Shown here piece after piece: positions 2,686-38,871 of a stretch of DNA of 64,000 bases. The stretch's first letter is position 1. Each line of letters starts with the position of its first letter. The notes under the pieces were generated by a model that was not told where the DNA came from, made no database searches, and worked only from the letters and a program-made list of their open reading frames with translations. Origin of the DNA: Saccharibacter sp. EH611. GTDB lineage: Bacteria; Pseudomonadota; Alphaproteobacteria; Acetobacterales; Acetobacteraceae. Where the stretch lies: positions 310,001 through 374,000 of the forward strand of contig NZ_WVHP01000021.1 of assembly GCF_009834765.1 (NCBI RefSeq), given 5' to 3'. Both the position numbers and the translations under genes were made by a program.

Positions 2686-4047
2686 ATGACAGCCAACAAC
2701 CATCATCGCCGCACACGGATTGTTGCGACCCTCGGGCCTGCATCGTCAACACCTGAGCAGATTGTTAATCTTGCTAAAGCAGGTGTGAATGTTTTCCGTC
2801 TGAACTTCTCTCACGGTTCGCACGATGAGCATGCAGCCCGTCATAAAGCGGTCCGCGAAGCGGAAGCAAAAGTGGGGCATCCACTTGCTGTTTTGGCTGA
2901 CTTCCAAGGGCCAAAGCTGCGCGTTGGCGTATTTGAAAATGGCCCAGTGATGCTGAAAAAAGGCCAAAAATTCCGTTTGGATCTAGATAAGGCACCAGGT
3001 AACGACAAGCGCGTTAATCTGCCACATCCAGAAATTATCTCAGCGATTGATGTTGGCCACCGTCTGCTTCTGGACGATGGTAAGATGGCCCTTAAGGTGC
3101 TGAGCAAAGATAAGAACGGCCTGGAAACTGAAGTTCTGGTGGGTGGTAAGCTCTCTGAACGTAAGGGTGTGAACGTTCCTGACGTTGCGCTGCCAATCCC
3201 AGCACTGACTGAAAAAGATCACAAAGACTTCAAGTTTGCTCTGTCTCTTGGTGTTGATATCGTGGCTCTGTCCTTCGTTCAGAAGCCAGAGGACATTCAG
3301 GAAGCTCGCGATATTGCGAAGGGCCAAGCTTGGATTGTCACCAAGCTGGAAAAACCACAAGCTGTGGATCAACTCGAAGAGATCATCCGCCTGTCCGATG
3401 CGCTGATGGTTGCACGTGGTGACCTGGGTGTGGAACTGCCAGCTGAGGAAGTTCCGGTCGTTCAGAAGCGTGCGATCAAGGAAGCTCGTCGTCAGGGCCG
3501 TCCGGTGATCGTGGCAACACAGATGCTGGAAAGCATGATCGACAGCCCATCACCAACCCGCGCTGAAGTATCTGACGTTGCGAACGCCGTGTATGACGGT
3601 GCGGATGCTGTAATGCTTTCTGCTGAGAGTGCTGCTGGTGGCTATGGTCTGGATGCTGTGAGCATTATGGCACGCACGGTTTCCCGTGTTGAGCGTGATG
3701 CTGACTGGCGTGCTCGTATGGACAATATGCGTCCAGTTGCTGAGCGCAGCATTCAGGGCTCTCAGGCAAAATCTGCTGGTGATGTTGCCCGTCATGCGGG
3801 TGCTTCGGCTCTGGCTGTGCAGACAGAAGATGGCCGTAGTGCTGTTCTCGTGTCTCGTGAACGCCCACATCAGCCTATTGTTGCTCTGACAAACGAAACG
3901 ACAGCACGTCGCTTGAGCGTGGTCTGGGGTGTCTTCCCGAAAGCAGCTTCTGACAAGAGCGAGATTGCTTCTTCTCCTGTCGTGAAGAGCGGTGACCATG
4001 TTGTTCTGCTTGACAGCAGCAAAGCGCTGAGCGTTGTGAAGGTCTAA
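2686..4047 (+). CDS. pyk: Pyruvate kinase
   Basis: Converts phosphoenolpyruvate and ADP to pyruvate and ATP, the last glycolytic step, in the cytoplasm. Visible motifs are the N-terminal RTRIVATLGPAS, RLNFSHG with the active-site Arg/Asn/Ser, the substrate segment TKLEKPQA, ARGDLGVELP, and MLESMIDSPSPTRAEVSDVANA followed by GADAVMLSAESA. At 453 residues it is slightly short at the C-terminal allosteric domain, which ends in the usual VVKV-like strand. The ATG at 2686 is chosen over an in-frame upstream start at 2578 because it has a CGAGGA ribosome site 5 bp ahead and the family N-terminus; the upstream start would overlap the preceding gene. Two hairpins follow it. Confidence 0.95.
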   Translation: MTANNHHRRTRIVATLGPASSTPEQIVNLAKAGVNVFRLNFSHGSHDEHAARHKAVREAEAKVGHPLAVLADFQGPKLRVGVFENGPVMLKKGQKFRLDLDKAPGNDKRVNLPHPEIISAIDVGHRLLLDDGKMALKVLSKDKNGLETEVLVGGKLSERKGVNVPDVALPIPALTEKDHKDFKFALSLGVDIVALSFVQKPEDIQEARDIAKGQAWIVTKLEKPQAVDQLEEIIRLSDALMVARGDLGVELPAEEVPVVQKRAIKEARRQGRPVIVATQMLESMIDSPSPTRAEVSDVANAVYDGADAVMLSAESAAGGYGLDAVSIMARTVSRVERDADWRARMDNMRPVAERSIQGSQAKSAGDVARHAGASALAVQTEDGRSAVLVSRERPHQPIVALTNETTARRLSVVWGVFPKAASDKSEIASSPVVKSGDHVVLLDSSKALSVVKV

Positions 4048-37029: not shown

Positions 37030-38241
37030 TCAGGCTGCTGTAGCGAGGAACGGGTCAGAGGCAGAACCGAAGATGTCGTAATGAATACGCTCTTGCGGAA
37101 TGCCAGCGGCGCGCAGGGCTTTGATGGTCTCGGTCATGAAGGTAGAGGGGCCGCATAGATAAATATCGCTCTCAGGGATGAGATGACGAATGAGCCAGTC
37201 AGAAGAGAGGTGCCCCTTGTGGATTTCCACAGGGCTTTCTTCCCGAGTTGGCGCCTCATGGCTGTAAAAAACATCGGCTTTCAAGCTGCCTTTGCGGGCG
37301 AGTGAACGAATGACATCACCAAAAACGTCACTCTGTGGGCTATGTGTGCCATGCACGTAGTGAACCTTACGAGAGGAAGTCTGTGCGGTGAGGGATTCTA
37401 CGATGGAGATCATTGGCGTGAGACCAATGCCAAGGCTCACTAAAGTGACAGGGCGGTCAGTGTCATGGTGCAGGGTGAATTCTCCGGCCGGGGCTGAAAC
37501 ATCCAAGACATCACCAACACGAACCGTATCATGCAGCCAGTTAGAGACCACACCGTGATTCTGGCGCTTTACTGTGATGCGGTAATACGCATTCGATGGA
37601 GCTGAGGAAATGCTGTAATTGCGGCGTTCTGCACCCGCGCCTGGCACATTAAAGCGGAAGCTGAGATATTGCCCCGGCTTATGGGTCATCACAGGCTGAT
37701 TGTCTGTTGGACGGAGGATAAAAGAGGTCACGTCAGGACTTTCTTCGTGACGTTCAGCCACTTGGAAGGCACGCCAACCGACCCAACCGCCTTCTTGCTC
37801 AGCATCTTCTTGATAAAGGGTTTGTTCACGTTCAATGAGCACATCAGCAAGGAACCAATAGGCTTCTTTCCATGCTTCCATAATCTCGGGCGTGGCGGCA
37901 TCCCCCAAAACATGAGCGATGGCTCCAAGGAGCGCTTCCCCAACAAAAGGATAATGTTCAGGAAGGATGTTCAGCCCAACATGCTTTTCAGCAATGCGTT
38001 CAATCATTGTTTGGAGCGGGGCGGGGTTTTGGATATGCCGCGCATAAGCGAGAACCGCAAAAGCCAACGCTTTAGGCTGCTCACCATCTTTTTGGTGAGA
38101 CATATTAAACAGGTCAGCAATGGCTTTGTCGGCAAGGAGGCGCTTGTACATTTCCCGCGTAATGTCGAGGCCATGCGCTTCTAATGCAGGAATGCAGGCG
38201 GTGACGATTGACCGTGTTTGCTCGGAAAGAGGGGTTGGCAT
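37030..38241 (-). CDS. hmp: Flavohaemoglobin (nitric oxide dioxygenase)
   Basis: Oxidises nitric oxide to nitrate using O2 and NAD(P)H, protecting the cell from nitrosative stress. The 403 residues comprise a globin domain (about 1-140, with NMSHQKDGEQPKALA and the proximal His in IAEKHVGLNI), an FAD domain with RNYSISS (about 210) and an NAD domain with GIGLTPMISI and YLCGPSTFM. Domain order and length match Hmp. It is divergent from nsrR and has an NsrR-type operator 15-37 bp ahead of its start codon, so NO induction through NsrR is likely. Confidence 0.95.
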   Translation of the reverse strand: MPTPLSEQTRSIVTACIPALEAHGLDITREMYKRLLADKAIADLFNMSHQKDGEQPKALAFAVLAYARHIQNPAPLQTMIERIAEKHVGLNILPEHYPFVGEALLGAIAHVLGDAATPEIMEAWKEAYWFLADVLIEREQTLYQEDAEQEGGWVGWRAFQVAERHEESPDVTSFILRPTDNQPVMTHKPGQYLSFRFNVPGAGAERRNYSISSAPSNAYYRITVKRQNHGVVSNWLHDTVRVGDVLDVSAPAGEFTLHHDTDRPVTLVSLGIGLTPMISIVESLTAQTSSRKVHYVHGTHSPQSDVFGDVIRSLARKGSLKADVFYSHEAPTREESPVEIHKGHLSSDWLIRHLIPESDIYLCGPSTFMTETIKALRAAGIPQERIHYDIFGSASDPFLATAA

Positions 38242-38255
38242 GATGAGAATCCAAA

Positions 38256-38278
38256 AAGATGTATTTTCTATATATCTT
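38256..38278. promoter_or_regulatory. NsrR operator upstream of hmp
   Basis: A 23-bp 11-1-11 site. The left half AAGATGTATTT is a perfect match to the NsrR half-site AAGATGYATTT; the right half CTATATATCTT matches its inverse at 8 of 11 positions. It lies just upstream of hmp and faces the divergent nsrR gene. Confidence 0.8.
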
Positions 38279-38397
38279 TTATAGGTGGAGAGAAGATTCT
38301 GTCAAACACACGTGATTGACCGCACTCAACGAGCAGGGTAGCGAGTAGAGTCACTTGTTAGGAGTCAACGGCTCCCCCGACACTAGGAGCGAGACAC

Positions 38398-38871
38398 GTG
38401 CGGCTGACGCTTTATACCGATTATGCCTTCAGAACGCTGATTTACCTTGAGACGCAAAAAGATCGGCTTGTGTCCATCAGTGAGGTTGCACGTATTTATG
38501 GAGCGTCTGAAAATCACCTAGTTAAGGTGGTACATCGCCTTGGGAAGGCAGGGTTTATCCATACAATGCGGGGACGCAAAGGAGGGTTACGTCTAGGGCG
38601 TGCGGCCCAAGACATACGGCTGGGCGATGTGGTGCGTTGCACGGAAGATGACTTAGCACTCGTTGGGTGTATGCAAGCAAACGAATCGCAGTCTGGTTGT
38701 ATTTTGGTAGGTGGGTGCCGCCTGAAACAAACGCTGATTAAAGCACGGCATGCTTTTATGGATGTGCTTGATGACGTAACGCTAGCCGATGTCACCGCCA
38801 AACACGAGCGCCGCGTTTTAATGCAGAGCGTGCAGGCGATGATCGACGATACAGAGGCCCTTGATGATTAG
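38398..38871 (+). CDS. nsrR: Rrf2-family nitric-oxide-sensing repressor NsrR
   Basis: A winged-helix regulator of 157 residues. The N-terminal MRLTLYTDYAFRTLIYL and the helix-turn-helix segment ISEVARIYGASENHLVKVVHRL are typical of NsrR, as is RGRKGGLRL. Three cysteines in the C-terminal half (GCM, SGC, GGC; spaced nine and five residues) would hold an iron-sulphur cluster destroyed by NO. The start is GTG at 38398 behind TAGGAGCGAG. It is divergent from hmp with a good operator in between. Its stop overlaps the stop of rlmE tail to tail by four bases (TTAG). Confidence 0.85.
   Translation: MRLTLYTDYAFRTLIYLETQKDRLVSISEVARIYGASENHLVKVVHRLGKAGFIHTMRGRKGGLRLGRAAQDIRLGDVVRCTEDDLALVGCMQANESQSGCILVGGCRLKQTLIKARHAFMDVLDDVTLADVTAKHERRVLMQSVQAMIDDTEALDD

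Follow-up and report, generated by a model that had tools for sequence, protein, structure and literature searches.

The hmp-nsrR locus

In the stretch of the Saccharibacter sp. EH611 genome analysed here (the window, 64 kb), a gene for a flavohemoprotein and a gene for an Rrf2-family regulator stand back to back, and the question raised by this arrangement is whether the space between them carries the operator of a nitric oxide (NO) switch and which of the two genes that operator would control. The initial annotation described the locus as a divergent hmp-nsrR pair, and our analysis agrees: hmp lies on the minus strand and an nsrR-type Rrf2 gene on the plus strand, separated by a gap of 156 bp (38242-38397). 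The features of the locus are:

37030-38241, minus strand: hmp, flavohemoprotein (NO dioxygenase) of 403 amino acids, identified by the NCBIfam model NF009805 and three domains
38256-38278, no strand assigned: probable NsrR-type operator dyad, AAGATGTATTT-T-CTATATATCTT, 23 bp, from a pattern match and conservation in relatives
38278-38283, minus strand: putative -10 of hmp, TATAAA, touching the operator, read from the sequence, 16 bp from the -35
38300-38305, minus strand: putative -35 of hmp, TTGACA, the complement of which, TGTCAA, is kept in relatives
38306-38397, plus strand: region before nsrR, in which no second operator and no unusual RNA fold were found
38398-38871, plus strand: nsrR, Rrf2-family repressor of 157 amino acids with D8, C91, C101 and C107, from Pfam Rrf2, the NsrR model, a PDB match and alignments
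38668-38700: NsrR residues 91-101, the inter-cysteine loop of 9 residues

The hmp product scores 490.1 bits against NF009805, above the curated cut-off of 432, and globin, FAD-binding and NAD-binding domains are all found in it. The nsrR gene starts with GTG. Its product passes the cut-off of the Rrf2 domain PF02082 (121.7 bits, cut-off 30), and its best solved relative is the NsrR of Streptomyces coelicolor (PDB 5n07, E = 1.4e-17). Alignments place the three cysteines that had been ascribed to this protein at C91, C101 and C107, with Asp8 in addition. The host had been taken for an acetic acid bacterium, correctly, because the nearest named genome found is that of Saccharibacter floricola, the NsrR of which is 98% identical.

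The probable operator, best match in the genome

The 23-mer AAGATGTATTTTCTATATATCTT occupies 38256-38278, 15-37 bp before the hmp start codon, and differs from AAGATGYATNNNNNATRCATCTT at one of 18 specified positions. The two halves and their placement are as first described: the left half, AAGATGTATTT, is perfect, and the right half, CTATATATCTT, shares 8 of its 11 positions with AAATRCATCTT. One position differs from the published core, gATGyAT-(N5)-ATrCATc. With the core at up to one mismatch, the site is the only match in the window (shuffle mean 0.05), and the same holds for AAGATGYATNNNNNATRCATCTT at up to three. The AT-rich composition of the stretch and a right half that agrees at just 8 of 11 positions would fit a chance palindrome that happens to lie near the hmp start; we consider this extremely improbable, given a shuffle expectation of 0.10 matches per window at up to three mismatches and the conservation and symmetric change of the dyad in relatives, described below.

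A genome scan for more sites had been proposed, and it returned no second match to AAGATGYATNNNNNATRCATCTT at up to two mismatches in the whole 2.28 Mb. Four other matches were found with three mismatches each, against three for the reversed control pattern, and all four fall inside open reading frames of at least 110 amino acids. Further NsrR targets at this stringency were rejected on these grounds; weaker NsrR sites may exist elsewhere in the genome.

Conservation of the dyad in relatives

Thirty-six loci with an NsrR homologue were fetched as the best-scoring search matches, rather than as a random sample; 27 have a divergent hmp alongside and nine do not. Twenty-three of the 27 hmp-nsrR loci are distinct, as L009, L018 and L020 duplicate the genomes of L002, L010 and L011, and L033, identical to L032 in the hmp-nsrR stretch, was not counted. 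A related dyad stands before hmp at all 27 divergent loci, with at most two mismatches at 19, and each has p ≤ 0.013 when compared with 300 mononucleotide shuffles of its own intergenic region. The weakest dyads have five (L027) or four mismatches (L029, L034 and L037). The distance from dyad to hmp is 59 bp in L034 and 9-28 bp in the others.

The manner in which the dyad varies is informative as well. In the S. floricola site, AAGATATATTTTATATGCATCTT, the imperfect half is the opposite one to that of the window site. In Bombella intestini and B. favorum the dyad reads AACATG...CATGTT, position 3 and its partner having changed together. Because both halves have changed symmetrically, as the site of a symmetric dimer would, the dyad is better read as a functional operator than as a chance palindrome. 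Conservation and symmetric change among relatives back the earlier reading, and we conclude that 38256-38278 is very probably the NsrR operator for hmp.

The putative hmp promoter and the proposed switch

The promoter alignment comprises 22 of the 27 hmp-nsrR loci. Of these, 21 keep TGTCAA, the complement of the putative -35, and the locus of the window is one of them; the exception is L039, which has TGTAAA there. Because the dyad abuts the putative hmp -35/-10, steric repression is the likely mechanism. That the operator blocks the hmp start region is likely, and we infer it from position because a general promoter scan of the region, the rule of which demands T as the last -10 base, found no promoter.

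By analogy with its family, the Saccharibacter protein would work as follows. An NsrR dimer with a [4Fe-4S] cluster, ligated by Cys91, Cys101 and Cys107 and by Asp8 of the other subunit, would occupy the 23-bp dyad over the hmp start site, obstructing RNA polymerase at the -10 beside it. Destruction of the cluster by NO would free the dimer from the DNA, and hmp would be made, its product converting NO to nitrate. The cluster, its reaction with NO, DNA binding and repression are all carried over to the Saccharibacter NsrR from what is established for the family.

NsrR or RirA

RirA of Rhizobiales carries three cysteines, has Asn8, and its gene lies in a context other than hmp. It belongs to the Rrf2 family, like the Saccharibacter protein, and is described as an iron regulator (PMC8822346). 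If the Rrf2 protein were of the RirA type, hmp would, through this site, follow iron or oxygen status instead of NO. Model scores are of little help, being nearly equal: 134.6 bits for the NsrR model NF008240 (curated cut-off 182) and 133.0 bits for the RirA model NF008886 (curated cut-off 193), each below its cut-off. NF008240 may be narrow, since nine of 14 control genomes match it and only one passes the cut-off. The cysteine motif also leaves room for the RirA reading. In Saccharibacter it is C-X9-C-X5-C, where E. coli NsrR has the shorter X4-X5. The alignment gives X5-X5 for S. coelicolor NsrR. The first loop, nine residues here, is 9 to 15 residues long across the 36 loci.

The residues point the other way. 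In S. coelicolor NsrR, Asp8 is the fourth cluster ligand beside three cysteines (PMC5411485, PMC9338935; structures 5n07, 5n08 and 7b0c), the same set as in the Saccharibacter protein. Asp8 is kept in the alignment at 36 of 36 loci, and D8, C91, C101 and C107 are invariant in a 12-row alignment that includes E. coli NsrR. Asn8 was encountered once, in L120, which forms a long branch of its own in a 29-row tree; the deep forks of that tree are unresolved, and E. coli NsrR falls among the alpha-proteobacterial rows. Among 58 genomes of the class, no RirA above the cut-off was found, so the tree does not separate NsrR from RirA. The lack of any other genome site at up to two mismatches also argues against an iron regulator, although the open reading frames with three-mismatch matches could still include an iron target. 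A search of plasmids matched 287 records, none covering 80% of the query, and most of the best 40 of these are named just "Rrf2 family", which gave no help in telling NsrR from RirA. We judge a RirA-type regulator very improbable; the assignment to NsrR is supported mostly by residues, gene context and the operator, and also by 45% identity to E. coli NsrR.

Comparison with known NsrR systems

NsrR-hmp regulons have been described in gamma- and beta-proteobacteria, Bacillus and Streptomyces, with the motif gATGyAT-N5-ATrCATc; hmp is the most conserved NsrR target, and the Rrf2 repressor gene clusters with it (Rodionov 2005, PMC1274295). Saccharibacter has an operator of this type before hmp and shares with those regulons the motif, the target and the clustered Rrf2 gene, but it differs in lineage. 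The sole alpha-proteobacterium named in that paper is R. capsulatus E1F1. NsrR is not new to the alpha-proteobacteria, since a later account places it in Paracoccus and Magnetospirillum (PMC12774639). In S. coelicolor, 23-bp operators are reported at the hmpA genes (PMC9338935), and the Saccharibacter dyad is likewise 23 bp long and placed at hmp. None of the open-access titles and opening parts of abstracts surveyed deals with NsrR operators from acetic acid bacteria. The Saccharibacter system is a further case of the well-known NsrR-hmp switch and its mechanism is not new; what is gained is comparative evidence, base by base, that extends this defence against NO to the acetic acid bacteria, and the lineage details add modestly to it.

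Autoregulation of nsrR

S. coelicolor differs from the window in having, as reported in PMC9338935, an operator at nsrR itself as well; none is seen before nsrR in Saccharibacter. Since the operator sits between two divergent genes, a single shared site might control nsrR too and make the pair autoregulated, and the relatives give this some encouragement: a second dyad lies close before nsrR at seven of the nine loci with intergenic regions of 77-80 bp, which makes it plausible that NsrR controls its own gene there. In the window, however, 119 bp separate the end of the operator from the nsrR start codon, the best candidate for a second dyad has nine mismatches, and we consider control of nsrR from the shared site unlikely. 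The initial annotation had called the locus a complete, self-contained NO-sensing module; the operator and the NsrR stand, but the search before nsrR found no autoregulatory site, and in that respect the word complete claims too much.

The seven loci with a second dyad are L029, L031, L032, L033, L037, L039 and L040, L032 and L033 being the same there. The second dyad is mostly AAGATGTCAA...ATATCTT; beginning 27-29 bp upstream of nsrR, it overlaps the hmp -35. These dyads have two to five mismatches (p ≤ 0.003 each). At the same place in the remaining two, L026 and L027, there are seven to eight mismatches (p of 0.2 or more). No clear second dyad was seen at the loci with gaps of 83-93 bp (L014, L024 and L030), and none stands out in the Saccharibacter and Bombella gaps of 155-222 bp, where the best, in L017, has five mismatches (p = 0.03). 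The simplest interpretation is that in the Saccharibacter/Bombella clade autoregulation from the intergenic region was lost or moved.

Operator-like dyads were also seen before Rrf2 genes in other settings. L035 has an Rrf2 homologue without an adjacent hmp, and a dyad, AATATGCAGATCGTATATATCTT, with three mismatches ends about 5 bp before that gene, at 1501; its position hints at an autoregulated paralogue. In L025 the Rrf2 gene at 875 has a dyad with two mismatches 68-46 bp upstream, and no hmp was found within the 874 bp upstream of that gene.

A structured RNA leader before nsrR was considered and rejected. Rfam gave two matches, which fall short of the gathering score and lie outside the hmp-nsrR gap, and the fold of 38340-38430 is weaker than the shuffle mean (z = +1.14). 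Six Bombella loci (L010, L011, L015, L016, L019 and L021) have a long, well conserved stretch upstream of nsrR. The alignment of these six leaders gave no good evidence of RNA structure in that stretch, covariation being scant, with changes on both sides at one of 27 pairs. A search for a further NO gene, NnrS, gave no match in three genomes, nor in any of the 14 control genomes, so the blank result carries no information.

Loss of hmp and orphan nsrR genes

Fourteen Saccharibacter/Bombella genomes were checked, three from one genus and eleven taken as Bombella. Ten carry hmp, and a site with at most two mismatches lies just before it in all ten; the four without hmp (G002, G333, G272 and G295) have no site at this threshold. 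S. floricola has one further match with two mismatches, inside a reading frame.

The repressor does not always leave with its target. No close nsrR was found in G272 and G295 (best E 1.1e-6). In G002 (Saccharibacter sp. 17.LH.SD) and G333 (Bombella sp. ESL0385), hmp is gone and nsrR is intact, following immediately on the gene that stands before hmp in the window, which by eye is mfd-like. The two places where hmp drops out between these neighbours are:

L012 (Bombella sp. ESL0385), 2983-3000
L013 (Saccharibacter sp. 17.LH.SD), 2781-3000

The clade thus offers natural experiments, the apparent loss of a second operator and the loss of hmp with the repressor kept, that bear on what maintains a local repressor in a genome. 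The most extended reading is that NsrR of Saccharibacter and Bombella is a one-operator switch with a long inter-cysteine loop that has lost its autoregulatory site, and that lineages without hmp have kept the orphan for a new target; on the sequence evidence we hold this to be doubtful. G002 has six three-mismatch matches against one for the control pattern, five of them inside reading frames and the sixth (L067) between two.

Decay of the Bombella orphan was considered and is unsupported. Pairwise dN/dS for L012 is 0.036-0.072 against seven Bombella relatives and 0.084 against S. floricola, with dS of 1.3-3, near saturation, and three further pairs not computable. These values are like those of hmp-bearing comparison pairs (0.025-0.071; five computable of nine chosen), though the averaging takes in the period when hmp was still present. 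The Saccharibacter orphan, L003, gave two computable pairs, with dN/dS of 0.090 and 0.101, both at dS above 2.5. Residue 39 of L003 is Ser, in contrast to the Asn of the other Acetobacteraceae rows in the 36-locus alignment; Ser is also found there in L118 and L126, rows from other families.
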